A DNA stretch of 41,618 nt from Halegenticoccus soli. Its GTDB lineage: Archaea > Halobacteriota > Halobacteria > Halobacteriales > Haloferacaceae. Every line of letters starts with the position of its first letter. The stretch's first letter is position 1. The notes beneath the pieces were generated by a model. The model saw only the letters and a list, made by a program, of their open reading frames with translations, was not told where the DNA came from and searched no databases. The position numbers and the translations under genes are program-made. Location of the stretch: contig NZ_PEND01000014.1 in NCBI RefSeq assembly GCF_002844195.1, positions 1 to 41,618 on the forward strand. The letters are read 5' to 3'. Of this stretch, positions 9,249 through 41,043 are shown piece after piece.

Positions 9249-12200
9249 TTAGCGGACCTTGGTGGGACACCCCTTGACGGTAAGCCGGGTCCGCTCACCG
9301 AGCGTTACGGTCAGGTCTCCCGGTCCCTCGCCGGAGGCTCCGCTCATCGAGACATCGAACGCGACCATCCGTTCGTCACGCTTGCCACCGCCCGAGACGG
9401 CGACGCGCGCCTTCTCGGCCTTACGGAGTTTGTCCAAGTCGAGGTCGCAGAACACCTCGCGCGCGGCCTCGCAGTTTTCGAGTTCGAGCTCCCCGCCGGA
9501 CAGTAGCGTGAGGAGCGAATCGACCGTGTCGACGCCGTGCTTCCCGTCGACGTGGACGTCGAGGTGGAGACAGTGACAGTCGACGTGGCCGACCATGCGG
9601 ACATCGGCGTCCGAGAGGTCGCAGATCTCGTTTTTCTTCACCGGGCCGAGGAACACGTAAAGCGCGCTCGCCCCGCAGGGGCCGTGGACGCTGTCGGGCA
9701 CGGCGATGACCACGTCCTCCTTTCCGTCGCCGGTGACGTCGCCGCACGCGGTGACCCAGCCGCGGCGATCCTTCGGGCGGATCTTGCGCTTGCGCGCCAC
9801 CTCGGGGAGCGGCTGGACGGGTTCCTGGAAGTCGTCGGGACCGTCCCCGACGCGGAAGATGCCCCACATGCCGGATTCGAGCCGGCGGCGCTCTTTCAGC
9901 TCCTGGTAGATGTGGTCGCCGACGCTGTCGGCCCGTCCGCCCGCACCGCCGAGGAGGTTGAACCCGAGCCCCTGTCCGGGCGTCAGACGGTCGTCGACGC
10001 CGACGTCGTCGGACTCGGGGAGGCCGCGGAAGAAATTCCACTGGTGGGCCGCGACGTGGTAGCTGAGCCCCCGCGCCCTGTCGGCGGTCATGTGGACCCG
10101 CAGCTGAACCGGGTCGTCCAAGAACGCGTTCAAGACCGGCGTGTTCGGATCGCCGTGGACCTTTGAACTATAGACCAGGTGCTGCTCCGGGTTCTCGTCG
10201 AACCGGCGGATGAACGGTTCCGAGCGGTAGTTAATCGCCCCGTACCCCTGATCTTCGGCGCCGACGTTCTGGTTGCACGGCGCGTCGGGATCACCCTCTT
10301 CCTCGTCGAACCCGGCCGGGACGACGCACGTGTCCGTGTTCGGGTTGACGATGTACTGCCCGTCGGCGAACGCGAGCGCGAACTCGCGGAAGTCCGGGCC
10401 GTCCGGGTTCTTGATGATCGCCTGAGAGCTGGTAGTGGTCGGCTCTCCTGTCCGGGAGTCGAGCCAAACAGTTCCTGGGGGTTCAACGATAAGGCGACCA
10501 TACGCACCATGGTGGCGATGGCTCCGGATATCGGCCATGTCGTACAGTACACTCGTCTGATCGTCCTCTTCGGCAAACCAGCGGTAGGTAATCGTCTCGC
10601 CAGGCTCGACTGTCTGGTCCCAATTGAAGCCGACGGTCGCCCCGTCGGAGGCATTCACGTCAAAGCGAATGTGCACAGGGTGCAGCGAGATCCGGTTGGA
10701 CTCCTCCCAGGGCTTGTTCGTCCGCATTTGCGGGTGAGCGTGTTCGGGACGATCCTCCGGAAGTTCGTTCGTGAGGTTGATCTCGATGCAGTCACCACCG
10801 TGCGCGCGGATCAATAGCGGCTCCGGTTCGCAGCGGCCGGCTTTGATGTCCTCAACGTTTTCATCGAGTGCATAGACAACCCCGAGCGGGTCCTGATCGC
10901 CGTAGTCGTTGTACGGGATCGTCGTCTCGAAGGCCGTGATGTTGTACACCCGATCGGGTTCCTGGTCGCTGTCCGGACACGGATCGCCGGGCGACGGCGC
11001 CTTCGGCGGGGGACTTCCCGTAATCGAGGGATTCTTGCGGGCATCCTTGTCCGGTGGGAAGCGGCGGTCGTCGTCCTCGTCGTAGAGGAGGCGAGCTTTC
11101 TGGCCGATCTTCCCGCGGTCGTCGAACGCCGCCGGAATCCCCGCATCCTTCAGCTGCTTCCGGGTGATCTTCTCGTCCGGTGCCTGCTGGTCGGGGAGCG
11201 GTTGCAGGTGGTCGACCTGTTTGCCGTAGATGCGGATAAGCCCCCACATCCCGTCCCAGAGGTCATCCGTGATTCCAGAGCCGTAAAGGTAATCACGGAT
11301 GGGAAGCCCATCGGGATTGTCGATGCGTTCGAAGTTCCCCTGTCCGGGGGTGCCGGTCGTGCGTTGATTCGGCGGAGCTCCGGTTGGGACCGTATTTTGG
11401 TTCTGTTCCCGAGCTCGGAACGTGAACGCCTCAGAGGTACCGAATTGTTGGGTGATAGCATCTTCCGAATCCAACTGAGTGGAATTGAAGTGCATCCCAT
11501 GGATTTGGAAGTTGTGCTGCTCCTCGTAGGCGGTCTGGACGAGCCGGATGCGGATAGGATCCTCGGGATAGGCTTCGAACACCGGCGTCGACGGGTCGCC
11601 GTGGACGTGGGAACTGTGGACGTACGCCGGATCCGGGTCCTCGCGGATGTAGTAAGGCGTGTTGCGGTAGTTGATCGCCATCACGCCCTCGTTCACGTTG
11701 TGCTCGAAGTCCGGGTTCACGAACTCGCCGTCGCGGTCGACCAACGGGGCGAAGTCGTGGAACAGGAGCGCCTGCTCGCGGAAGTCCTCGCCGTTGGGAT
11801 CCTTGATCATGGCCTGCGTCCCGCTGCGGATCGGATCGCCTGTGTACGGGTCGAGCCACTCGGAGTCCTCCGGTTCGACGATGAGCGAACAGAACGTCCC
11901 GTTCATCACGTCGTCGATGCCGGTGATGTGGTCGTGGAAGAAGATCGTCCCCTCCTCGTCGGCGTACCAGCGGAACTGGGCCTCGTCGTCGGGCTCGGCG
12001 TACTGGCTGTAGTTATACCCGGTTTGTAACGAGTCCGATCCGAGCACGTCGTAGGAGACGAAGTGGATGTGGTTCGACTTGCCGTCCCCGCCGGGGATCT
12101 CGTTTTTGAGCGTGATGTCGACGCAGTCGTTGACGTTGGCGCGGATCACCAGCGGTTCGGGGTTCATCTCGCCATTCCGCACGGCCTCGGCGTCCTCTTC

Positions 12201-14021
12201 GAGGACGTACACCTTGCCCTCGGGGTCGTGGTGGCCCGCGTCGTTGTACACGATGTCCGCCGGAAGCCCGACGATCGTGTACTCGCGGACCTCCCCGTCC
12301 TCGGGAGCCGGGCCGCCGAACTGCGTGTTGTCGACGTCCGGTTCGCACGGGTCGGTGTACGGCGCGCCGGGGACGATAGGCCCCTTCCGCGTCAGCGCCT
12401 GCTCCTCTTCGGGCGTCGGCTCGCGGACGCCCTCGTAAGGCGGGAACGGCGGGAGGACGCCGATTTCGCCCGGAATAAACTCGGGGAAGCCGGGCACGTC
12501 CGAGTCCTCGGAGATCGGCGGCTCGTTGCTCGGGAGCTCGACGAGATCGTCGCGCTCCTTGTCGTGGACGCGCATCATCCCCCACATCCCTTCGCCGTAG
12601 TGCGGGAAGAGGTGGCAGTGGAAGAGCATATCTCCGGCGCTGCCGTGCGCACCGCCGGCGCCGACTTCGAACGCCTCCTCGAACGTCATGTCCGGCCTGG
12701 CCGAACCCGATCCGTTCGCGGCGACGATGAACGCCTCGATGGTCGACCCCATGCCGATCGTCTGGGAGTCGATCGTGTCCGAATCTTCGACCCGCCGCTC
12801 TTCGAACCACCGGTGGTTGTGCAGGTGGTGGACGTGATTCTCCTCGGCGGAGGCGCCGACGACGGCGAACTTCACGGGGTCGCCGACGTAGGCCTCGTAG
12901 ACGTTGTCGCCGCCGCCGGGATCGCCGTGAGCCCACGAGTTGTAGAAGCTCGCCTCCCGATCGCAGTCGGGGCAGTCCTCGCGGAGGCGCTGGCCCGTCG
13001 GGTCCGCGCGGTAGTTGATCGCGTGCGTCGTCTGCTCTTCGTCGCTGTTCGGGAACGTGACCTGTCCGCCGTCGGCCGTTTCGATCCCCTCCGGCGTGTG
13101 GTAGAAGACGACGACCTCGCGGTAGTCAGGGATATTCGGCGGGTGGATGTCCGCCTGGAGGCCGCTGCGGAGCGGTTCGCCCGTGTGCGGATCCGTGTAG
13201 GTGGTCCCCGGCGGATGCACCGTGATCGCGCCGAACAGCCCGCGGGTGAACAGATTCGCCTCTTCGGGCGGTTCGTCGGCGCTGTCGTACGCCTGGTTCG
13301 CGCCGTCGAAGAAGAAGTGCGTCCCCTGGCTGTCCGCCTGCCACGTGTAGTGGATGGTCTCGCCGGGGGCCGCCGTCGTGTCCGGGTTGAACCCGACGGC
13401 CATCCCGTCCGAGTCTTCGACCTGGTAGGGCAACGCCGTGTTGTGGATGGACGCGTGACGGTCGAGGTGGTTCTTGAAGCAGATCTTGACGGTGTCGCCC
13501 TCGTTGGCGCGGATGACCAGCGGCTCGATGATCCGCGTGTCGACGTCCTCGTCGGGGCAGTCGTCCTCGCCGCTCGATTTGTCGTCGTGCTTGACGTCGC
13601 ACCCGCACGCGCCGTCATTCTTCTTCTGTTCGCCACCGTCAGCCGCGCCTTCGTCGCCGTCGTTCCCGTCTTCGACGAGCGCGTACGCGTCGTCCGGGAC
13701 GACGCCGGAGGCGCGGCGCGCCTCTTCGAGGTTCTCCTCGAGGACGTACATCGCTCCCGGAGGCTGATGCAGCCCGTACTTGTTGTAGACGATGTCGACC
13801 GGGATGGCGTGGATCGTGAACTCCCGGACTTCGCCGGTCTGCTGGTCCTGTCGAGCGCGGTCCGTCACTCCGGTGGCATCCTCGGGAAGCGCACCGTGGC
13901 CGCCGTAAAGCATCGCGGACGATGCCAGTAGCCCGCTCCCTTTGAGGAAGTTCCGACGTGACGTGACCGGAGTCGGTTCGTTCGTGCGTTCGGTATCGGC
14001 TGTGTCGGTTTCAGTTGTCAT
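9249..14021 (-). CDS. Giant Tat-exported multicopper oxidase, three two-cupredoxin units plus FG-GAP-like tail
   Basis: A 1590-residue secreted protein. Residues 21-45 are a Tat leader (SRRNFLKGSGLLASSAMLYG). Three units of about 360-430 residues follow (about 64-490, 576-933, 1024-1392), each opening with a VREFTI/VYNITAF strand, a PYND/VYND-G-x-x-DP turn and PLVIRAN, and each ending in GMWG-x-x-R. Unit 1 carries HVHHLHNH (396-403) and HCHLFPHYGEGM (468-479), the type 1/type 3 copper signature; unit 2 opens with HIH (651-653) and HDH (696-698). Units 2 and 3 lack HCH at their ends. Residues 1425-1460 (GDVTGDGKEDVVIAV) resemble an FG-GAP repeat; the last 125 residues are unassigned, with Cys and His. 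An insert at 115-160 is Asp/Gly-rich. The layout resembles six-domain ceruloplasmin-like oxidases. Likely substrates are metal ions or phenols; unknown. Bases 10450-11520 are less GC-rich than both flanks. Confidence 0.85.
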   Translation of the reverse strand: MTTETDTADTERTNEPTPVTSRRNFLKGSGLLASSAMLYGGHGALPEDATGVTDRARQDQQTGEVREFTIHAIPVDIVYNKYGLHQPPGAMYVLEENLEEARRASGVVPDDAYALVEDGNDGDEGAADGGEQKKNDGACGCDVKHDDKSSGEDDCPDEDVDTRIIEPLVIRANEGDTVKICFKNHLDRHASIHNTALPYQVEDSDGMAVGFNPDTTAAPGETIHYTWQADSQGTHFFFDGANQAYDSADEPPEEANLFTRGLFGAITVHPPGTTYTDPHTGEPLRSGLQADIHPPNIPDYREVVVFYHTPEGIETADGGQVTFPNSDEEQTTHAINYRADPTGQRLREDCPDCDREASFYNSWAHGDPGGGDNVYEAYVGDPVKFAVVGASAEENHVHHLHNHRWFEERRVEDSDTIDSQTIGMGSTIEAFIVAANGSGSARPDMTFEEAFEVGAGGAHGSAGDMLFHCHLFPHYGEGMWGMMRVHDKERDDLVELPSNEPPISEDSDVPGFPEFIPGEIGVLPPFPPYEGVREPTPEEEQALTRKGPIVPGAPYTDPCEPDVDNTQFGGPAPEDGEVREYTIVGLPADIVYNDAGHHDPEGKVYVLEEDAEAVRNGEMNPEPLVIRANVNDCVDITLKNEIPGGDGKSNHIHFVSYDVLGSDSLQTGYNYSQYAEPDDEAQFRWYADEEGTIFFHDHITGIDDVMNGTFCSLIVEPEDSEWLDPYTGDPIRSGTQAMIKDPNGEDFREQALLFHDFAPLVDRDGEFVNPDFEHNVNEGVMAINYRNTPYYIREDPDPAYVHSSHVHGDPSTPVFEAYPEDPIRIRLVQTAYEEQHNFQIHGMHFNSTQLDSEDAITQQFGTSEAFTFRAREQNQNTVPTGAPPNQRTTGTPGQGNFERIDNPDGLPIRDYLYGSGITDDLWDGMWGLIRIYGKQVDHLQPLPDQQAPDEKITRKQLKDAGIPAAFDDRGKIGQKARLLYDEDDDRRFPPDKDARKNPSITGSPPPKAPSPGDPCPDSDQEPDRVYNITAFETTIPYNDYGDQDPLGVVYALDENVEDIKAGRCEPEPLLIRAHGGDCIEINLTNELPEDRPEHAHPQMRTNKPWEESNRISLHPVHIRFDVNASDGATVGFNWDQTVEPGETITYRWFAEEDDQTSVLYDMADIRSHRHHGAYGRLIVEPPGTVWLDSRTGEPTTTSSQAIIKNPDGPDFREFALAFADGQYIVNPNTDTCVVPAGFDEEEGDPDAPCNQNVGAEDQGYGAINYRSEPFIRRFDENPEQHLVYSSKVHGDPNTPVLNAFLDDPVQLRVHMTADRARGLSYHVAAHQWNFFRGLPESDDVGVDDRLTPGQGLGFNLLGGAGGRADSVGDHIYQELKERRRLESGMWGIFRVGDGPDDFQEPVQPLPEVARKRKIRPKDRRGWVTACGDVTGDGKEDVVIAVPDSVHGPCGASALYVFLGPVKKNEICDLSDADVRMVGHVDCHCLHLDVHVDGKHGVDTVDSLLTLLSGGELELENCEAAREVFCDLDLDKLRKAEKARVAVSGGGKRDERMVAFDVSMSGASGEGPGDLTVTLGERTRLTVKGCPTKVR

Positions 14022-23866: not shown

Positions 23867-24001
23867 AAGCGGGCCGCGGCGCACCGCCCCGCGATCGTAC
23901 GCCGCCGAAGGGGGGCCGCCCCTCCAGCGTCCATGGGTCGGAAGTCACGACAGGCCGCGAGTCGGGGGTCGCGACAGACCGCGAGCCAGGAGCCGCGCAG
24001 G

Positions 24002-25108
24002 ATGACGTACCACGAGCTGCTCGGCCTCTCGCGATCCGAGTTCGATGCGATCGAAGGACACTTCCGGCGGCGGGAGTTCCGCAGAACGGAGTACCGCCAC
24101 CTCCCGGACCGGCGGAAACACCTGTCGCGGGGGACGGTGCTCGTCGGGGGGACGGTCGTCCGCGGGTTCCCGAAGATCCCGCGGGCGTTCGTCCTCGACG
24201 CGGGGATTTCGCGGTACTTCGACGGGGCGTTCGTGGTCGAGGAGAAGCTGAACGGCTACAACGTCCGCGTCGTCCGGGTCGGGGAGGTGCTCGCGTTCAC
24301 GCGGAGCGGGCTCGTCTGCCCGTTCACGACGTGGAAGGTCCGCTCGACGCTCGACCTCGACGGCTTCTTCGAGGAGAACCCGTCGGCGATGCTCTGCGGC
24401 GAGATGATCGGCCCGGAGAGCCCCTACACGGCGCACGAGTACCCCGAAGTCGAGTCGCTCGCGTTCCGCGCGTTCGACGTGCGCGACCGAGCGACGGGCG
24501 AACCGCTCCCGGTGCGCGAGCGGCGGCGGCTCTGCGAGCGGCACGGGGTGCCCCAGGCCCCGCTGTTCGGCGTTCACCGAGCCGAATCGGGGGCGACGGG
24601 AGTGAGGGAAACCGTCCGGAAGCTCGACGAGGAGGGTCGCGAGGGGGTGGTGATGAAGTCCCTCGGCGGGGAGAGACAGCTGAAGTACACAACCTCGGCG
24701 TCGAGCCGCAGCGACCTGGCCTACGCGTTCTCGTACCCGTTCGACTACGGACGGGACTTCGTGTTCCGACGGCTGCTCCGCGAGGCGTTCCAGGCCGTCG
24801 AGTGGGAGGCCGACGACGCCGAGGTCGAGCGGCGGGCGCGCGAACTCGGGGAGGCGATACTCGTCCCGATGGTGCGCACGTTCCGGGGGGTACGCGACGG
24901 GGAGATCGTCGCCGAGCGGCACCGGATCAGAGGGGACCGCCGCCCGATCGAAGAGCTGCTCGACCACCTCCGGGACCAGGGGTTAGAGATCGCCGTCGAG
25001 GACGACCGCACCGAGGGCAGTGAACGCGTCGTCACGTTCGCGAAGCGACTGCGGTCTACGACCGACAAGACGAGAGCGTACCTCGACGGAACGGTCGTCA
25101 GCGAGTGA
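24002..25108 (+). CDS. ATP-dependent RNA ligase, Pab1020 type
   Basis: A 368-residue nucleotidyltransferase. Motif I is EEKLNGYN with the adenylated Lys at residue 82. Later motifs are seen in AMLCGEMIGPES (motif III/IIIa region), GREGVVMKSLGGERQLKYTT (motifs IV and V) and a helical C-terminal domain that in this family makes the dimer. It joins RNA ends through an AMP intermediate. The frame extends back to ATG at 23933, but those 23 residues are very basic and come from an imperfect direct repeat (GTCRCGACAGRCCGCGAG twice), so ATG at 24002 is preferred. Its probable PIN-domain partner is at 21816 on the other strand. Confidence 0.85.
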   Translation: MTYHELLGLSRSEFDAIEGHFRRREFRRTEYRHLPDRRKHLSRGTVLVGGTVVRGFPKIPRAFVLDAGISRYFDGAFVVEEKLNGYNVRVVRVGEVLAFTRSGLVCPFTTWKVRSTLDLDGFFEENPSAMLCGEMIGPESPYTAHEYPEVESLAFRAFDVRDRATGEPLPVRERRRLCERHGVPQAPLFGVHRAESGATGVRETVRKLDEEGREGVVMKSLGGERQLKYTTSASSRSDLAYAFSYPFDYGRDFVFRRLLREAFQAVEWEADDAEVERRARELGEAILVPMVRTFRGVRDGEIVAERHRIRGDRRPIEELLDHLRDQGLEIAVEDDRTEGSERVVTFAKRLRSTTDKTRAYLDGTVVSE

Positions 25109-27490: not shown

Positions 27491-27727
27491 GCCGGGTATC
27501 CCGGACCCCTCATGCCGAATGAAATGCGAGCGGTTCGGCGGGGAAGGCCCGCCGATCTCTTTCCGGGTCGGCGTTCGAGCGGTTGTCGGCGACGCTTCCC
27601 GAATCGGCGATCTGAGACGATCGATCGAAGCGGTGAGCCGAAGCGGCTAGAGCCGCCTGACGCTCGGGTGCCGGTCAAAAATCGGAGGAGGAACGGAAGG
27701 GAAACGGAACCGAAGGAGCGGCCGGCG

Positions 27728-29692
27728 TCAGATCTCGGTGACTCGCTCGTGCTCCTGGGAGATAGCGCTCGCGTCCTCCGGGAGGAGAGCGACCACGAGG
27801 TAGTCGGCGTAGTCGTCGATGTACTCGAGGAGCGCCGCGATGCGGTCGGAGTCGATCGCTTCGAGCGAGTCGAGCAGGATGAACGGCACCGTCTCGTACA
27901 CGTCGTGCGCGAGGTACCCCGCGAGAGCGAACACGAGGCCGGTGACCTCGCGCTCCGACTCGCTCAGGTGGTCGACGGTGTCCTCGTAGACGGTGCCGGA
28001 CGCCGTCTTGCGAACGACGTGCAGGTCGAAGAACGCCCGCGTGACCTTCCGGCGACCCTCCCGGACCTCCCGTTCGGTCCGCTCGATCCAGATGCGCTCC
28101 AGGTTCGCGTACCCAAGGATGTCGAGCACCGCCTCCATGTGGTCGTTGAACTCCGAGACGGCCTGGGTTTCGATCTGCTCGATCCGCGTCCGGAGGTCCT
28201 CGATCTCGGCTTTGACCTCCTCGCGGCGGTCGGCGAGCCGGTCGCGCTCGTCCAGCCGCGACTCAATCTCGTCGATCTCGTCGTCGACGCGTTCGAGTTC
28301 GCTCTCGAGTTTCCCCAGTTCGAATTCGAGCTGGTTCGCCTCCTTGTGGAGGTCGAGAAGCTCGCTGTACTCCTCGGCTTCGAGTTCGTCGACTGCCTCC
28401 TCGAGCTCTTCGATCTCCGTCGTCAGCGACTCGCGGCGGTCCTTCAGCCGGTCGAGCGACCGCTCGCGGTCCTCGATCTCGTCCTCGGTTCGGCGGAGTC
28501 GCTTTTGAATCTGCTCGCGACGGCGCTGGTCTTCCTGGAGGGAGGACCGCTCGCGCTTCAGTTCGTCGATCCGCTCGCGGAGGCCGTTCCGGTCCTCGAC
28601 CTTCGAACGGCGGAGGTCGCGCAGTCGGTCGACCGTCCGCTCTATCTGCGCCGTCTCGACTTCGGAGCCGCAGGTCCAGCACACCACCGTCTTCGAGTCG
28701 TCGAGGAGCTGATCGGTGACGGAACCGGAACCGGAGCTTTCGGTTCCGCCGTCCTCGCGGAGCGCCTCGAGCACCTCCGTGCTCGTCCCGTCGAGCATGT
28801 CCTCGTTGAACTGGATGATGGTCTGCAGTTCGGTGATGCTCGAATCGAGGCGCTGGATCCGATCGCGGAGCCGGTCGAGCTTCGATTCGATCTCGTTGAT
28901 CTCGCCGACCGGCGCGTCGGCCATCTCCTCGCGCTCCGCTTCGAGTTCGTCCCGCTCCTCTCTGAGCGTCGACAGGCTGTCCTGTTCGGACTCCATCCGG
29001 AACCGAACGTTGTCGAGGTCGGAGCGCTTCTCGCGGAGCTGTTCGAGCTTCTCGTCGAGTTCGGCCTTCTCCTCGCGGGAGTCTTCGAGGTCGGCGTCGG
29101 CGGACTCGATCTCCGCTTCCGTCTCGGAGAGCGCCTCGCGCTTCTCCTCGATGTCCGTCGAGAGCTCCGTCCGCCGCCGTTCGAGCTCCGGGAGCCGACC
29201 TTCGAGCGATTCGAGCTCCTCAAGTTCCGACGAGAGGCGGCGCTTTTCGGACTCCAGTTGCTCGATTTCGCTCTGGATCGCCTCGGTGTCGATCGGCTCC
29301 ATGATGATCTCGCGGAGGTCGTCGCCCCGCGCGACGGCCCGACGGGCCTCGTTCGATTCGAGGAGGAACGCGAACAGGTCCGCGAGGGTCGAGTCCTCGA
29401 GGTACGGTTCGCCCTCGGTGAGGACCGCGTCGCCCTGCCGGGTCAGCGCTCGAGAGTAGGTCCGGTCGCCGATCGTCAGTTCTACCTCCCCTTCGTCGGC
29501 GTCGCCCTTGAGCGAGACGCGGTCGCTCCCGAGCGCGGCCATGAGCGCCTGGAGGAAGGACGTCCGGTTCGTGGCGTTTCGACCGGCGAGGACGGTGATA
29601 CCCGGCTCGAAGCTCACGCTCGTCCGCTCGATTCCGCCGATGTTTCGAACGTTCACTTCGACCCGCTCAGTCGAAGATTGTGCTTGACTCAT
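27728..29692 (-). CDS. Archaea-specific SMC-related protein (Sph type)
   Basis: A 654-residue coiled-coil ATPase-like protein. The N-lobe (1-130) begins VEVNVRNIGGIERTSVSFEPG and has the P-loop region GITVLAGRNATNRTSFLQAL (31-50), where the usual GxGKS/T is replaced by NATNRTS. Long coiled coils run from about 135 to 300 and 350 to 530. Between them is a CWTC motif (338-341), a single CxxC hook-like site as in Rad50. The C-lobe (540-654) has VTGLVFALAGYLAHDV and VPFILLDSLEAIDSDRIAAL (Walker B-like). It is downstream of rdfA with a 99-base gap, the arrangement of Haloferax sph3 and rdfA, which affect cell shape. The ATG at 29692 gives the standard N-terminus. Confidence 0.9.
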   Translation of the reverse strand: MSQAQSSTERVEVNVRNIGGIERTSVSFEPGITVLAGRNATNRTSFLQALMAALGSDRVSLKGDADEGEVELTIGDRTYSRALTRQGDAVLTEGEPYLEDSTLADLFAFLLESNEARRAVARGDDLREIIMEPIDTEAIQSEIEQLESEKRRLSSELEELESLEGRLPELERRRTELSTDIEEKREALSETEAEIESADADLEDSREEKAELDEKLEQLREKRSDLDNVRFRMESEQDSLSTLREERDELEAEREEMADAPVGEINEIESKLDRLRDRIQRLDSSITELQTIIQFNEDMLDGTSTEVLEALREDGGTESSGSGSVTDQLLDDSKTVVCWTCGSEVETAQIERTVDRLRDLRRSKVEDRNGLRERIDELKRERSSLQEDQRRREQIQKRLRRTEDEIEDRERSLDRLKDRRESLTTEIEELEEAVDELEAEEYSELLDLHKEANQLEFELGKLESELERVDDEIDEIESRLDERDRLADRREEVKAEIEDLRTRIEQIETQAVSEFNDHMEAVLDILGYANLERIWIERTEREVREGRRKVTRAFFDLHVVRKTASGTVYEDTVDHLSESEREVTGLVFALAGYLAHDVYETVPFILLDSLEAIDSDRIAALLEYIDDYADYLVVALLPEDASAISQEHERVTEI

Positions 29693-29791
29693 GAACTTAG
29701 CTCCGGGCTCCGGAGATATAATACTTGACGTATTGGATCGACGACCTGACACGGCTATAGCCGTCACATCGGAATCGAGGGTTGCGGGCGC

Positions 29792-33740: not shown

Positions 33741-33821
33741 CGAGGATCCCGTGACTGCAGGAGAGGAAAAGCGGGAAGAAGAAGAAGAAGACGACAGTGT
33801 GAGTGAAGACGAGGGCGACGA

Positions 33822-33844
33822 GTTTCACTCGGTACGAGGGGTGT
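33822..33844 (+). repeat. Origin recognition box 4
   Basis: TTTCACTCGGTACGAGGGGT on the plus strand, then GT. It faces away from box 3 on the other side of the AT-rich core. Confidence 0.85.
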
Positions 33845-33888
33845 CTGACGTCCGTCCGACGGAGACGCGAGGGGAACGGTCGAACGTG

Positions 33889-33913
33889 ATTCACTCGGTA
33901 CGGGGGGTGGGGG
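33889..33913 (+). repeat. Origin recognition box 5
   Basis: ATTCACTCGGTACGGGGGGT on the plus strand, followed by GGGGGTGAGGG, the same G-rich extension seen after box 3. Confidence 0.85.
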
Positions 33914-34039
33914 TGAGGGTCCAACTACGGACGAGCACCCGCCTCAACGCTCGCTCGGCGCTGACCCAACGGGATCATTCGATAGTCCCCCGATGGCCTC
34001 TCGATGCCCCCTCGGTACGTCACTCGGGATCCTCACCGA

Positions 34040-34059
34040 TTTCACTCGGTATGAGGGGT
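34040..34059 (+). repeat. Origin recognition box 6
   Basis: TTTCACTCGGTATGAGGGGT on the plus strand. It ends six bases before the TATA-like CCTTTATGG (34065-34073) of orc1, so Orc1 bound here could repress its own gene. A partial copy (CCCTCGGTACGTCACTCGG) lies at about 34009-34027. Confidence 0.75.
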
Positions 34060-34098
34060 CGATACCTTTATGGCGGTACCGACAAGCCGTGTGAGTCA

Positions 34099-35334
34099 AT
34101 GACGGATCCGGACCAGGGCGTCGATGATCCGACCGAGGAACCTGCCGATCCGTTCGCGATCGGCGACATTTTCGTCCGGGAGGAACTCCTGCGCGTCGGG
34201 TACGTTCCCGAACGGGATCGGATCATCGGCCGCGACGACGAAATTCGTGCGGTAGGAAAAGCGCTCGGTCCGGCGGTTCGGGGCGGGCCGCCGCGGAACC
34301 TTCTCATCTACGGGAAGACGGGGACGGGCAAGTCGCTCGTGTCGAAGCACATGGCCCGGGAGGCGCGTTCGCGCGCGCAGCAGAACGACGTCAACCTGAT
34401 CTACCAGTACGTCGATTGCTCGAACGAGGACACCGAAACCCGCGCCGCCCGCGAACTCGCACTCGGCGTGCGCGACACGCTCGAACCCGACCTCGACATC
34501 CCCCGCAAGGGGATCGGGGCGTCGGAGTACTTCCGTCACCTGTGGGACTTACTCGACGCGCATGACGTCAGATCGCTGATCGTCATCCTCGACGAGGTCG
34601 ACAAACTCGACGGCGACGACGACATCCTCATGACGCTCTCTCGCGCCGAGGAGACCGGCAAGACCGACACCTACGTCGGAATCATCGCGATCAGCAACAA
34701 AATCCAGTACCGCGAGACCATCGGCGAACGCGTCGATTCGAGCCTCCAGGACAGGGAGTTCGTCTTCCACCCCTACGACGCGAATCAGCTCCGGCAGATC
34801 CTCGAAAACCGGCGGGACGCGTTCCGAGACGGGGTTCTCTCCGACGAGGTGATCCCGCGGGTCGCCGCGCTCGCCGCGCGGGAGCACGGCGACGCCCGCA
34901 AGGCCATCGACATCCTGCGCTACGCGGGGGCGATAGCGGAAGAGACCGAGTCCTCGACGGTGACGGAGGACCACATCGATCAGGCGATGGAACGCGCCGA
35001 GGCTGACCGCTTCTCGGAGCTGGTGTCGGGATCCACCCCGCACGTGAAGTACATCCTGATCGCGTTGGCCTCGCTGACCCTGAGCCGATCGAAGGACGAG
35101 TTCGCCAAGAAGGACATCTACACCGCGTACAAGAAGGTCTGCCGGAACGAGGGATCCGATCCGATCTCCTGGGATCGGGTCTCCCGCCTGCTGAAAGAGC
35201 AATCGTTCCTCGGGATCACCGAGAGTCGGCACACGGGGGGCGGGTACGAGAAGGGAAGCTATCGGGTTCACTCGCTGAATCGAGATCCGGAGATTGTCCT
35301 GAAGGCGCTCAATTCCGGCAAGGATCCCATCTGA
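34099..35334 (+). CDS. orc1: Orc1/Cdc6 replication initiator
   Basis: A 411-residue AAA+ ATPase. FVREELLRVGYVPERDRIIGRDDEI is the usual N-terminal lead-in, Walker A is YGKTGTGKS (71-79), Walker B LIVILDEVDKL (160-170, Asp165-Glu166), sensor 1 IIAISNKI, and sensor 2 is in REHGDARKAIDILRYAG. Residues about 320-405 form the winged helix (LTLSRSKDEFAKKDIYTAYKKVC ... LLKEQSFLGITESR) that reads origin boxes. It binds the boxes upstream and loads the MCM helicase. ATG at 34099 is chosen because a TATA-like box lies 26-34 bases ahead; the longer frame runs through the origin boxes and is non-coding. Confidence 0.95.
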   Translation: MTDPDQGVDDPTEEPADPFAIGDIFVREELLRVGYVPERDRIIGRDDEIRAVGKALGPAVRGGPPRNLLIYGKTGTGKSLVSKHMAREARSRAQQNDVNLIYQYVDCSNEDTETRAARELALGVRDTLEPDLDIPRKGIGASEYFRHLWDLLDAHDVRSLIVILDEVDKLDGDDDILMTLSRAEETGKTDTYVGIIAISNKIQYRETIGERVDSSLQDREFVFHPYDANQLRQILENRRDAFRDGVLSDEVIPRVAALAAREHGDARKAIDILRYAGAIAEETESSTVTEDHIDQAMERAEADRFSELVSGSTPHVKYILIALASLTLSRSKDEFAKKDIYTAYKKVCRNEGSDPISWDRVSRLLKEQSFLGITESRHTGGGYEKGSYRVHSLNRDPEIVLKALNSGKDPI

Positions 35335-35777: not shown

Positions 35778-36323
35778 ATGACGATCGAGCGGTCATCGAT
35801 CGTGGAGTCCCTACCCATGTCCACCCTGATAATCGGAGGCGGACACGTCGGCTTCGCCCTCGCCGAACGGCTCGGTTCACGGCCCGGCTCCGTCCTGCTC
35901 ATCGATACGGACGCCGGCGTCGTCGAACGGGCCCGAAAACGCGGTATCGAGGCCCGGAGAGTCGAGTTCACGGACGTCAACGCGCTTCGAAACGCCGGCG
36001 TCCGCCGGACGGACGTTGCGGTCGTCGCGACGGACCGCGACGCCGTCAACCTCCTCGTCGCGCAGCTACTCAGGACGCGGTTCGACGTCGACCGCGTACT
36101 CGTGTGCGTGAACGATCCGCGGAATCGAGAACCGTTCGAGGAACTCGGCATCGACACGGTGTGCCGGGCGGACACGCTTTCGCGCGCTCTTGCGCGAAGA
36201 CTGAGCGGACCCTCCCTCGGAGCCCGACGAACCAGCCACGTCGAAGACGCTGATAACGCCGGAGGCACCGATCGGACTGAGGACCGACGAAACGGCGACG
36301 GACGATCGACGCGGGAGGCGTAA
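35778..36323 (+). CDS. TrkA-N (RCK-type) NAD-binding regulatory protein
   Basis: A 181-residue protein. STLIIGGGHVGFALAERLG is the GxGxxG NAD-binding turn and VLLIDTD the next strand with its acidic end; VRRTDVAVVATDRDAVNLLVAQLLR and RVLVCVNDPRNREPFEELGID complete the Rossmann fold of RCK/TrkA-N domains, which gate potassium or cation transporters. Residues after 150 are a charged, disordered tail. Its stop lies two bases before the GTG start of the antiporter gene, so the two form an operon and this is probably its cytoplasmic gating subunit. Met14 (35817) is an alternative start; 35778 is kept for its TATA spacing. Confidence 0.85.
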   Translation: MTIERSSIVESLPMSTLIIGGGHVGFALAERLGSRPGSVLLIDTDAGVVERARKRGIEARRVEFTDVNALRNAGVRRTDVAVVATDRDAVNLLVAQLLRTRFDVDRVLVCVNDPRNREPFEELGIDTVCRADTLSRALARRLSGPSLGARRTSHVEDADNAGGTDRTEDRRNGDGRSTREA

Positions 36324-36325
36324 CC

Positions 36326-38608
36326 GTGCAGGTCATCCAGCCGCTGGGCCACCACGAACTGCTCGTCCTGTTTCTTCAGCTGTTCCTGCTCCTCTTTGTC
36401 GCCCGTGGGCTCGGAGAGCTCGCCCGCCGCGCGAACCTCCCCTCGGTCGTCGGCGAGCTGCTCGCGGGGATCGTTCTCGGGCCGTCGATCCTCGCGGCGA
36501 TCGCGCCCGGGCTGTTCACCGCCCTGTTTCCGCAGGAGGCCGCGCAGTATCACCTCCTGGAGGTCGTCTCCTGGTTCGGACTGATCATGCTCCTCATCCT
36601 CACCGGGCTGGAGACCGATCTCGATCTTATCCAGAGCCGGGCGAAGTCGGCGACCTACATCTCGATAGCGGGTATCGTCGTCCCCTTCGCGCTCGGATTC
36701 GGGCTCGCGTACAACCTCCCCGACGCGTTCCTCGCGGGAGCCGACCAGCGCCTCGTCTTCAGCCTCTTCGTCGCCACGGCGCTGTCCATCTCTGCGATCC
36801 CGGTCATCGCGAAGGTGTTGATGGAGATGGACGTGATCCGCCGCGACATCGGGCAGATCACGCTCGCGGCCGGGATGATAAACGACACCATCGGGTGGGT
36901 GTTGCTCGCCGTCGTCGCCGGACTCGCCCGAAGCGGGGCGATCGACCTCGGTTCCCTCGGGACGACGTTGGTCTCGATGGCCGCGTTCTTCGGCCTCGCG
37001 TTCACCCTCGGCGACCGCGCCGTCCGGCGCATCTTCCGCTGGGTGGACAACGCCATCGGCGGCGTGACGGCGAAGATCACCACGCTGATGATCCTCGCCC
37101 TCGGCGTCGGCTCGATAACCCACTACATGCACCTCGAAGCGGTGCTCGGCGCGTTCGTCGTCGGCATCCTCGTCGGTCAGACCAAGCGGTTCGGCCAAGA
37201 ACCACAGCACGTCTTCGAGATCGTTACCATCGGGATCTTCGCGCCCATCTTCTTCGCGACGGCGGGCCTCCGCGTCGATCTCACCGCGATGGCCGACCCG
37301 ACGGTGTTCCTCGTCGGGATGGCGGTGCTCGCCGTCGCCATCGTCGGAAAGTTCGTCGGGTCGTACGCGGGCGCGAAGGCTGCCGGTCTCGGCGACTGGG
37401 AAGGGATCGCGATGGGTGCCGGAATGAACGCCCGCGGCGCGATGGAGATCATCATCGCGACCATCGGACTGAGCCTCAACGTGCTCACCTCCGAGATGTA
37501 CACGATCATCGTCATGGTCGCCATCGTGACCTCCCTGATGGCGCCGCCCCTGCTCAGGTGGACTCTCCCGAAGGTCGCGATGACCGACGAGGAACGGGAC
37601 CGCCTCGAACGCGAGGAGCGCCAGCGGCAGAGCTTCCTCGGAAACGTCACCCGGGTCCTGCTGCCGACGCGGTGCAGCGCGGACTCGCAGTTCGCGGCTC
37701 AGCTGGTCGGTCACTTCGCCCGCAACCGCGAGATCGAGGTGACGAACATGTACGTCCCGCGCGCCACGGAGCCGTCGCCGGGCGGCCGATCGATCGTAGA
37801 CCGGCTCCGCCGCGTGCTTCCGGGCCGAAACGGTTCCGACGCCGTCCCCGACGGCGGCTCGGCCGCGACGACCGCGGAAACGGCGGCCGCGGATCGCCGA
37901 GCGACGACGTGTCTCGGGCGGATGCGCGAGCAGCTCGCGCTGTCCAACGACAGCGTCAGGGGGATCGTCCGCCCGATCGAGGCGACTACCAGCCAGACGG
38001 TCCTCTCGGAGGCGCGGAACGGGTACGACATGCTCGTCCTCGGCGTGAGCGAACGCGCCGGTACGCCCGACGGACCGCTTTTCAACACCGAGGTGGACGA
38101 CGTGATTCTGGAGTCGCCGTGTCCGCTCATGGTCGTCAACTCCGACGTGGTCGCGACCGGGGGCACCCTCGACAAGACCGACCTCGACCGGATCCTTCTG
38201 CCGACCGTCGGGACCGAGTACAACCGCCACGCCGCCGAGGTCGCGTTCGCCATCGCGCAGGAACGCGGCGCGCTGGTTGAGGTCGTCCACGTGGTCAACC
38301 GACCGCAGCTCGACGAGCTGTTCGTCGAGGAGCCGGACATGTCGTCGGCGCGGGCGCTCGGCGAGGAGATCGTCGACCGGGAGGCCGACCTCGGTCGACA
38401 GATGGGCGCGGAAGTCACGACGCGGGTGATCGTCGGCGACGACGAACCCGAGCGCGAGATCCTCCGCCTCGCCGAGAAGAACGACGACGACCTGCTCGTC
38501 CTCGGAAGCAACATCCGGACCGTCTCCCAGCGGGCGTTCTTCGGTCACCGCGTCGAGCACATCATCCGGAACTCGGATCGCCCCGTCGCGGTCATCAGCT
38601 CGCTCTGA
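36326..38608 (+). CDS. CPA2/Kef-type cation:proton antiporter with two C-terminal Usp domains
   Basis: A 760-residue membrane protein starting at GTG. Residues about 10-395 are the antiporter part with 12 or so helices, including LPSVVGELLAGIVLGPSIL, LIMLLILTGLETDLDLI, ATALSISAIPVIAKVLMEM and INDTIGWVLLAVVAGLA with the conserved Asp pair region, then GAFVVGILVGQTKRF and GAGMNARGAMEIIIATIG. Residues about 435-595 form a degenerate Usp domain (VTRVLLPTRCSADSQFAAQL ... CPLMVVNS) and 610-760 a second (LDRILLPTVGTEYNRHAAEV ... RPVAVISSL). It exchanges K+ or Na+ for protons and the Usp part is likely regulatory. Coupled to the TrkA-N gene two bases upstream. Confidence 0.92.
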   Translation: MQVIQPLGHHELLVLFLQLFLLLFVARGLGELARRANLPSVVGELLAGIVLGPSILAAIAPGLFTALFPQEAAQYHLLEVVSWFGLIMLLILTGLETDLDLIQSRAKSATYISIAGIVVPFALGFGLAYNLPDAFLAGADQRLVFSLFVATALSISAIPVIAKVLMEMDVIRRDIGQITLAAGMINDTIGWVLLAVVAGLARSGAIDLGSLGTTLVSMAAFFGLAFTLGDRAVRRIFRWVDNAIGGVTAKITTLMILALGVGSITHYMHLEAVLGAFVVGILVGQTKRFGQEPQHVFEIVTIGIFAPIFFATAGLRVDLTAMADPTVFLVGMAVLAVAIVGKFVGSYAGAKAAGLGDWEGIAMGAGMNARGAMEIIIATIGLSLNVLTSEMYTIIVMVAIVTSLMAPPLLRWTLPKVAMTDEERDRLEREERQRQSFLGNVTRVLLPTRCSADSQFAAQLVGHFARNREIEVTNMYVPRATEPSPGGRSIVDRLRRVLPGRNGSDAVPDGGSAATTAETAAADRRATTCLGRMREQLALSNDSVRGIVRPIEATTSQTVLSEARNGYDMLVLGVSERAGTPDGPLFNTEVDDVILESPCPLMVVNSDVVATGGTLDKTDLDRILLPTVGTEYNRHAAEVAFAIAQERGALVEVVHVVNRPQLDELFVEEPDMSSARALGEEIVDREADLGRQMGAEVTTRVIVGDDEPEREILRLAEKNDDDLLVLGSNIRTVSQRAFFGHRVEHIIRNSDRPVAVISSL

Positions 38609-39414: not shown

Positions 39415-41043
39415 CTACGCGCAGCCTTCCTGCGTCTGCTCGGCGGTGTTCGTCGCTTCGGCGGTGGCGTACTGCGTGTTGACGTTCTGCTGGTAGTTCA
39501 CCTGGTGAGACTCGGCCTCGCCGTTGTCCTGGGCGTACGCGATCGCGGCGTACTGCTCGTTGTAGTTCAGCTGCTCGACGTACTGGACCTGCTCGACGGC
39601 GGCCCTGGCCTCCTGCTCGTTGACCTGCCGCTGGTTGCCGTTGTCGTAGTCGACGGACCACCTGTCGTCCTCACCGTCGCTGCTCAGGAGGATCTGGGTC
39701 TGCGACCCGTCGGCCTGCGACTGCTCGCTCTCGTTCGTCGCCTCGGCGACGGCGATCTGCGCGTTCACGTTGGACTGGTAGCTCTCCTGGAACGCGGTCG
39801 CCCGACTGCAGTTCCGGGCGATCGCGACGGCGGCGGTCTGCAGGTTGACGTTCTCCTGGTCGACTTCCTGCGACTGGACCACCGTGGCCTCGGCCTCCTG
39901 CGTGTTCTCCTGTTCGGCCGCCTCCTCCGCGGCGGCCGATCTGGCTTCCGCGGAGATGTCGTCCATCTTCGAGGCGAGCGCGTCGGCCTCGTCGGTCGAG
40001 TCGTCGGACCCCGTGGACGCGACGGACCCGGCGGAGGCGACGCACGTCAGCGGGGTCTGCGCCTGCTTTTCGAGCTCGTTCGCCTGTTCATCGAGCGTCT
40101 CGATCTGCTCGTCGAGCGACTGCGTCTGTTCGTTGAAGTTCGCCGCGGACGCGGACGCGAGCTGCCTGTTCACGTTGACCTGGTAGCTCTCCTGCACCGC
40201 GAGTGCGACGCTGCCCTCGCCGACGGCGATGGCGATCGCGTACCCCTGGTCGTTGACGTTCAGCTGATCGACGTCCTGATCCTGCTCCACGGAAGCGTTG
40301 GCCTCCTGGGAACTCGACTGCTCGCCGGCCCCGTCCTGCGCCTGCTCGCTGACGTTCGTCGCTTCGGCAACGCCGACCTGGAGGTTCTCGTTAGACTGGT
40401 AGCTCCGCTGGTACGCCGTCGCCTCGCTCTTCTCGGCCGAGAGCGCGACCGCGGCGCTCTGGTTGCTGTAGTTCAGCTGCTCGACGTCCTGCTCCTGATC
40501 GACGCTGGCGTCGGCCGCCTGCGCGCTCTCCTGGACGCCGCCGCTCGTGTCGACGACGTAGCCGGAGTACTCGCGGGAGCACTCGTCGGCGAAGACGATG
40601 TGCACGTTACCGACGTTCTTGATCGACACCTCCTGCGTCTGGTCGGCGGCGTTGATCGAGTTCGCCTCGCCCTCCTGCGTGTTCTCGTTCGCCTGGTAGG
40701 TGCGCTGGATCGCCTTGGCGTCGCCGCCGTCGATGGAGATGGCGACCGCGCCGCTCTGCTGGTTGATGTTCAGCTGATCGACGTCCTGGTACTGCTCGAC
40801 GCGCGCGGACGCCTCCTGTGTGATTTCCTGTCTGTGCTCTTCGACCCATTCGGAGAGGTCCTCGGTGTCGGCGCCGAAGACGATGTACACGTCGTCGTCG
40901 CCGCTGAGCGTCAGTACTCCGTCTTCGCTCTCCTCCGCCGTGGCGACGGAGCCGACGGCGCCGGCGCCGGCGAGCGTCGAGACGAGGAGCGTTCCGAACG
41001 AGCGTCGCGATATCGGTAGCCGCTGATTCGATTTGTTGACCAT
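39415..41043 (-). CDS. Tat-exported protein with five Gln/Asn-rich repeats (curli-like fibre candidate)
   Basis: A 542-residue secreted protein. Tat leader: PISRRSFGTLLVSTLAGAGA (10-29), cleavage after SVATA. Five repeats of 58-59 residues lie at about 80-137, 179-236, 250-308, 386-443 and 481-538. Each reads AxVxQxQxVxQLNxNxQ, an AAxAxA strand, a loop with acidic residues, then QxxYQxNxNxQ, a small-residue strand and ANxxxQxQ. Regular Gln/Asn ladders with alternating Ala/Val recall curli CsgA repeats, which stack into amyloid fibres. VYIVFGADTEDLSEW (52-66) and VHIVFADECSREYSG (147-161) are a second repeated motif. Residues 309-330 form a short coiled coil. Five Cys are spread outside the strands. 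Fibre formation is inference. No CsgB/CsgG-like gene is nearby. The ATG at 41043 gives the shortest complete Tat leader. Confidence 0.8.
   Translation of the reverse strand: MVNKSNQRLPISRRSFGTLLVSTLAGAGAVGSVATAEESEDGVLTLSGDDDVYIVFGADTEDLSEWVEEHRQEITQEASARVEQYQDVDQLNINQQSGAVAISIDGGDAKAIQRTYQANENTQEGEANSINAADQTQEVSIKNVGNVHIVFADECSREYSGYVVDTSGGVQESAQAADASVDQEQDVEQLNYSNQSAAVALSAEKSEATAYQRSYQSNENLQVGVAEATNVSEQAQDGAGEQSSSQEANASVEQDQDVDQLNVNDQGYAIAIAVGEGSVALAVQESYQVNVNRQLASASAANFNEQTQSLDEQIETLDEQANELEKQAQTPLTCVASAGSVASTGSDDSTDEADALASKMDDISAEARSAAAEEAAEQENTQEAEATVVQSQEVDQENVNLQTAAVAIARNCSRATAFQESYQSNVNAQIAVAEATNESEQSQADGSQTQILLSSDGEDDRWSVDYDNGNQRQVNEQEARAAVEQVQYVEQLNYNEQYAAIAYAQDNGEAESHQVNYQQNVNTQYATAEATNTAEQTQEGCA

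Follow-up and report, generated by a model that had tools for sequence, protein, structure and literature searches.

A family of five-unit Q/N-ladder proteins in haloarchaea as candidate subunits of an extracellular fibre

The gene at 39415..41043 on the minus strand of the window (by which we mean the entire contig 14, 41.6 kb, one of 15 contigs in the 4.6-Mb genome of Halegenticoccus soli) starts with ATG and encodes a 542-aa protein, P0001, that carries a Q/N ladder in five units. It belongs to a family that is undescribed, unnamed and widespread among haloarchaea, and small one-unit proteins accompany it, a new finding that goes beyond P0001 itself. We consider it an even call that P0001 serves as large subunit in an extracellular system of two components, a fibre or matrix that polymerises by stacking of the CsgA/FapC type. 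The fuller reading falls somewhat short of even in our estimate: an undescribed archaeal functional-amyloid system, convergent on curli and Fap, that is built from five-unit and one-unit subunits, occurs widely in Natrialbaceae and Haladaptataceae as well as some relatives, and has changed between Sec and Tat export in the course of evolution.

Layout of the gene and the Q/N ladder

The features of P0001 run in the order leader, YLVFGAD element, R1, fsGWvv element, R2, R3, linker, R4, GD.SW.vsYdng element and R5. The N-terminus of the protein, MVNKSNQRLPISRRSFGTLLVSTLAGAGAVGSVATAEE, is a leader of the twin-arginine type.

40930..41043 (-), Tat-type leader, with SRRSFG at residues 12-17 (40993-41010) and a hydrophobic stretch behind it
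40834..40890 (-), N-terminal conserved element VYIVFGADTEDLSEWVEEH; family pattern YLVFGAD....LE.wv..Ha, with Y53, F56, G57 and L63 invariant
40630..40827 (-), unit R1, residues 73-138
40552..40608 (-), conserved element NVHIVFADECSREYSGYVV in the R1-R2 interval; family pattern F..v..vyivFa....fsGWvv
40333..40530 (-), unit R2, residues 172-237
40117..40314 (-), unit R3, residues 244-309
39910..40116 (-), the long linker from R3 to R4, residues 310-378, modelled by AlphaFold2 at low confidence and as partly helical
39712..39909 (-), unit R4, residues 379-444
39637..39666 (-), conserved element DRWSVDYDNG ahead of R5; family pattern GD.SW.vsYdng
39427..39621 (-), unit R5, residues 475-539, then the C-terminal ...QEGCA

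The initial annotation had described five repeats of 58-59 residues. Five units of about 58-60 residues are indeed present, but linkers separate them and they follow each other at 99, 71, 136 and 95 residues, which is not a strictly tandem arrangement. Glutamine and asparagine make up about 20% of the mature protein. Pairs of Q/N at i,i+2 occur 52 times in P0001 vs 20.8 +/- 3.7 in 2000 shuffles (maximum 34), while adjacent Q/N pairs occur 6 times vs 20.9 in the shuffles. The Q/N ladder seen earlier in this Tat-leader protein is therefore real and far from chance. P0001 is also strongly negative, with 94 D+E vs 17 K+R, as expected of a haloarchaeal host.

Next, we compared the 190 units of 38 relatives. 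Alternate positions are near-invariant and those between them variable (mean top-residue frequency 0.87 for the near-invariant face, 0.32 for the variable one), a pattern given by a beta-strand with one constrained face. The consensus reads A.A.V.Q.Q.V.Q.N.N.Q..A.A.A ... A.A.Q.S.Q.N.N.Q.G.A.A.N, and its ladder positions (Q, Q, Q, N, Q ... Q, Q, N, N, Q) hold their residue in 96-100% of units. The ladder thus lies on one strand face, the arrangement looked for in an imperfect-repeat functional amyloid. Exactly five units were found in 38 of the 39 aligned members, at median spacings of 98.5, 66, 97 and 101 residues, and the nearest neighbour of each unit in other species was the same-numbered unit in 190/190 cases. 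These data mark the five-unit layout as ancestral, with no ongoing shuffling or expansion of the units; recent tandem expansion of the repeats was rejected on the same grounds, since same-numbered units are orthologous between species.

A cysteine lies within the last six residues of P0001 and of 14 of the 44 large proteins of relatives (L044, L047, L048, L051, L052, L057, L059, L064, L083, L089, L090 and L095 among them), where it might serve as a cross-link between subunits.

Predicted fold, export leaders and surface anchors

Given P0001 and 38 relatives as input, AlphaFold2 placed long strands in all five units of the whole protein, with pLDDT of about 71-88 in the unit cores; helices were confined to one linker and the N-terminal element. 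The mean pLDDT was 58.5 and the pTM 0.55, and the five models varied widely in confidence. The units are accordingly modelled as all-beta. A confident prediction of helical coiled coils had been named at the outset as grounds for giving up the idea of stacked beta-arches; none appeared, and a helical coiled coil within the units is not supported by these models. A separate model of R2-R3 (mean pLDDT 71.6, pTM 0.47) repeated a long-short-long strand pattern twice (20, 6 and 21 residues), which is compatible with beta-arch and beta-hairpin topologies alike.

The R2-R3 model was compared with PDB structures using Foldseek. FapC (E=0.023), a further FapC entry, the CsgA fibril and HET-s ranked first, followed lower down by an ice-binding beta-solenoid (FfIBP), bactofilin, Suf proteins and HELLF. 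The list was confined to amyloids and proteins of beta-helical or beta-solenoid type, all weak matches. The whole P0001 model gave two matches only, both to FapC entries. As none of the matches was significant (best E=0.023) and TM-scores were around 0.1, they support the fold class weakly.

With SRRSFG, a hydrophobic stretch and TatC matches in the Halegenticoccus soli genome, P0001 has the sequence features of a candidate Tat substrate. A tree of 45 proteins splits into two deep clades. Classed by motif alone, the leaders of the window's clade (n=18) are of Tat type in 16 proteins and of Sec type in 2. The other clade (n=27) has Sec-type leaders throughout, the 'Tat' calls of L063 and L084 having been set aside as artefacts of reading ahead of the probable start. 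Both types occur within single species, namely Haladaptatus salinisoli (L045/L089), Natrinema gelatinilyticum (L058/L062) and Haloterrigena salina (L051/L071). Tat is a common export route in haloarchaea, so a Tat leader by itself implies no new mechanism of fibre assembly, and the Sec-type leaders of most relatives weaken the argument from Tat. Judged by motif, the Tat leader varies at the level of lineages and does not underlie a separate way of making fibres. The Tat route first proposed for P0001 thus survives as a twin-arginine leader and not as a defining trait, most relatives and the small proteins being of Sec type. Members with a Tat leader nevertheless raise the question of how a stacking-prone subunit avoids assembly in the cytoplasm, and the natural contrast between Sec and Tat lets one ask whether a folded fibre subunit can be exported.

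Some homologues carry a PGF-CTERM anchor at the C-terminus (L017/L046 of Halomicrococcus, L033 and L077), which places at least these on the cell surface; PGAP annotated the same anchor in two plasmid-record homologues (Halomicrococcus, Natrononativus). P0001, with its ...QEGCA ending, has no C-terminal PGF-CTERM anchor.

Small companion proteins and distribution of the family

Four short paralogues (114-120 aa), with one unit each and the Sec-type leader MKKALRILMALVVVGTVF, are encoded in the genome of Halegenticoccus soli. A survey of homologues' neighbours had been suggested by the initial annotation. Clustering brought up small Q/N genes as recurrent neighbours of the large genes; most clusters were shadow ORFs, and only the small Q/N genes were kept, after a separate test. 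In that test, the flanks of 44 large genes were searched for genes of <420 aa that are Q/N-rich and have a hydrophobic leader. Within 3.5 kb upstream of the large genes there were 38 of them, at 25/44 loci, and 37 of the 38 lay on the opposite strand, that is, divergently. Counted against sequence length, this is 38 in 150 kb upstream vs 3 in 512 kb elsewhere in the flanks, where their density is 43-fold lower. In the sister species H. tardaugens (L044), for example, about 0.7 kb separates the large gene from a divergent small gene upstream of it. Only 575 bp of contig remain upstream of the P0001 gene, so a small neighbour on that side cannot be seen in the window; the majority of the window's clade has no adjacent small gene. 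On the Haladaptatus salinisoli chromosome (L094 7890-9873), five one-unit Sec-leader small genes follow each other, a local expansion.

At the genome level, a profile of Natrialbaceae-type small proteins matched 68 of the 87 genomes with a large gene and none of the 305 without one (Fisher p about 4e-59, uncorrected for relatedness).

The large family itself was searched with a profile built from nine units, which matched 87/392 genomes and 26/96 genera of the window's order; in a phylum-wide sample, 11/11 positive genomes belonged to that same order. The closest relatives of P0001 are in Halegenticoccus tardaugens (65-71% identity; orthologues within the genus were measured at 69-70%), and further ones occur in Haladaptatus, Halomicrococcus, Halalkalicoccus and many Natrialbaceae. 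The family was not found in the other sampled genera of the window's own family, Haloferacaceae. Several relatives are plasmid-borne, and the plasmid records label them either 'hypothetical protein' or 'PGF-CTERM sorting domain-containing protein'. Sequence comparison with Pfam, NCBIfam and the PDB gave no match for P0001, and none of 39 family members has a Pfam match. The single weak PDB profile match, to the PhoQ sensor (E=0.025, 40 residues), was treated as chance. Matches to giant viruses in a viral fold library were not significant (best E=2.3e-3), and viral contigs yielded no relative that would point to a viral origin. No description of a five-unit Q/N-ladder family was found in the literature searched; nor did a known other role for such a repeat family turn up there, an outcome that would have spoken against the original proposal.

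Other genes of the contig are recorded here for context. An Orc1/Cdc6-type replication initiator at 33751-35334 (+) suggests that the 41.6-kb contig may carry, or belong to, a replicon origin. Behind a TrkA-N domain protein at 35778-36323 (+) comes a fusion of a Na+/H+ exchanger with a UspA domain at 36326-38608 (+), and a Pab1020-type RNA ligase (PF09414 and PF18330) lies at 23933-25108 (+). The 1590-aa protein at 9249-14021 (-) looks like an unusual fusion: its N-terminal half contains multicopper oxidase domains, and close to its C-terminus there is an FG-GAP repeat. A long coiled-coil SMC/Rad50-like ATPase was recognized by eye at 27728-29767 (-), and the 738-aa ORF at 27512-29728 (+), which has no Pfam match, is apparently its shadow.

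A proposed fibre system and its comparison with known amyloids

In the mechanism that we favour, P0001 would be exported by Tat and most of its relatives by a Sec-type route. After export, each unit of about 58 residues would fold into a long-short-long beta-strand arch, and the invariant Q/N/A face of one unit would stack onto the next to give an imperfect-repeat beta-solenoid of the CsgA/FapC type. The Q/N face would then form a hydrogen-bonded ladder, as described for CsgA and FapC (PMC10192328, PMC12822426). Large subunits could polymerise end to end via their exposed edge units, and the one-unit Sec-leader proteins may act as nucleators, caps or minor subunits; the genes of these small proteins lie divergently beside the large one in relatives, and in H. 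soli at other places in the genome. Polymerisation into fibres, the role of the small proteins and a function of the system in biofilms or at the cell surface are what we infer from the ladder that exceeds shuffles, the invariant face, the fixed architecture, the all-beta prediction, the companion genes and the PGF-CTERM anchors of homologues, which together support a fibre. Against it stand the moderate AlphaFold2 confidence, the non-significant Foldseek matches and the lack of sequence homology to known amyloids; anchored relatives could also be monomeric, and most of the window's clade has no adjacent small gene.

The strongest rival is a surface protein that does not polymerise. Five units stacked within one chain could make a rigid rod, a monomeric beta-solenoid stalk or adhesin that presents the YLVFGAD and FSGW elements or spans the S-layer, with the small proteins as separate secreted paralogues or ligands. 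A rod would account for the count of exactly five units in conserved order and spacing, for the conserved non-repeat elements between them and for the PGF-CTERM anchors of some members. However, few members have such anchors (2 of the 44 large genes taken from genome contigs), FapC polymerises despite its fixed repeat number and linkers (PMC12822426), and one-unit companions make little sense unless they cap edges or co-assemble. We therefore regard the rod as rather unlikely, if a serious contender.

The remaining confidence goes to two further readings or to an explanation that we did not consider. P0001 could be Q/N-rich material of the extracellular matrix that lacks an ordered cross-beta core, a hydrated, disordered and possibly disulfide-linked polymer in which the predicted strands reflect a bias of AlphaFold on alternating sequences. 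The moderate pLDDT, the wide spread of models, the strongly acidic composition and the recurrent C-terminal cysteine (14/44) speak for this, but the strict two-residue alternation across 190 units, the fixed turn region and the unit order argue for an ordered, selected fold and make a disordered matrix improbable. Least probable of all, and in our estimate very unlikely, is that the flat and regular Q/N face binds a crystal or polymer surface such as halite, gypsum or polysaccharide in the manner of ice-binding beta-solenoids. One face is indeed invariant and regularly spaced, and FfIBP is among the weak Foldseek matches; it ranks below the functional amyloids, however, the conserved face also holds A, V and S/T, which are expected to pack inside, and mineral-related neighbours were not found.

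Returning to the fibre, if the family does form one, it would be a functional amyloid that has converged on curli and Fap and works without an outer membrane, in salt close to saturation. In haloarchaea, the biofilm matrix of Haloferax volcanii stains with Congo red and thioflavin T, and the candidate gene HVO_1403 has been called homologous to a Sulfolobus amyloidogenic factor (PMC4180959); the literature searched held no established structural subunit behind this staining. As our family was not found in the other sampled genera of Haloferacaceae, it cannot be assumed to explain the Haloferax volcanii result. It does offer a concrete, testable candidate that is widespread, comes with small partner genes and occurs in cultured genera (Natrinema, Haladaptatus). 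Among other archaeal systems, the sheaths of Methanospirillum and Methanosaeta contain extracellular amyloid-like proteins (PMC6242892, PMC10593813); these are tubular sheaths of methanogens, and no link to the P0001 family was found. The nearest mention in the literature searched is that of a single unnamed archaeal protein with regularly spaced curli-like repeats (Dueholm 2012, PMC3521004), which is possibly a member of the P0001 family.

With curli, the family shares Q/N ladders at i,i+2, as in CsgA/CsgB, and a small companion subunit, and QxGxxN is weakly enriched in it (26 vs 12.4 +/- 3.7 expected). In contrast to curli repeats of about 22-23 residues, its units span about 58 residues with strands of about 20, and P0001 has a Tat leader. 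The curlin repeat PF07012 matched nothing in the whole Halegenticoccus soli genome, gave no hit above the cut-off in 27 carrier genomes and did not match any family protein, and E. coli CsgA and CsgB scored below zero bits against the family profiles. CsgG (PF03783) was likewise not found in the whole H. soli genome. The earlier remark that the window lacks Csg genes thus holds across all 15 contigs for the curlin repeat and CsgG. Curlin homology was thus rejected by Pfam, by the CsgA/CsgB profile search and by comparison with solved structures, and the shared family that a profile search against curlin might have uncovered did not materialize. What holds of the proposed curli-like stacked beta-arches is a secreted, Q/N-laddered, cross-beta-like protein with imperfect repeats; membership of the CsgA family is not supported.

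The likeness to Fap lies in the layout. FapB and FapC almost always have three imperfect repeats that are joined by linkers and carry conserved Asn/Gln (PMC12822426), and the P0001 family likewise combines conserved Asn/Gln imperfect repeats, long linkers and a near-invariant repeat number, here five units in 38/39 members instead of three. The major and minor Fap subunits can be likened to our large and small proteins, and FapC is the best, although non-significant, Foldseek match of P0001. The P0001 family differs in being archaeal, without an outer membrane, surface-anchored in some members and, for P0001, devoid of a sequence match in Pfam, NCBIfam and the PDB. Clustering of the neighbourhoods showed small Q/N genes as the recurrent neighbours and no Fap operon. 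Altogether, homology to curli or Fap is not supported at the level of sequence, and we read the likeness as convergence, with the five-unit layout as a close analogy to the fixed three-repeat design of FapB/FapC.
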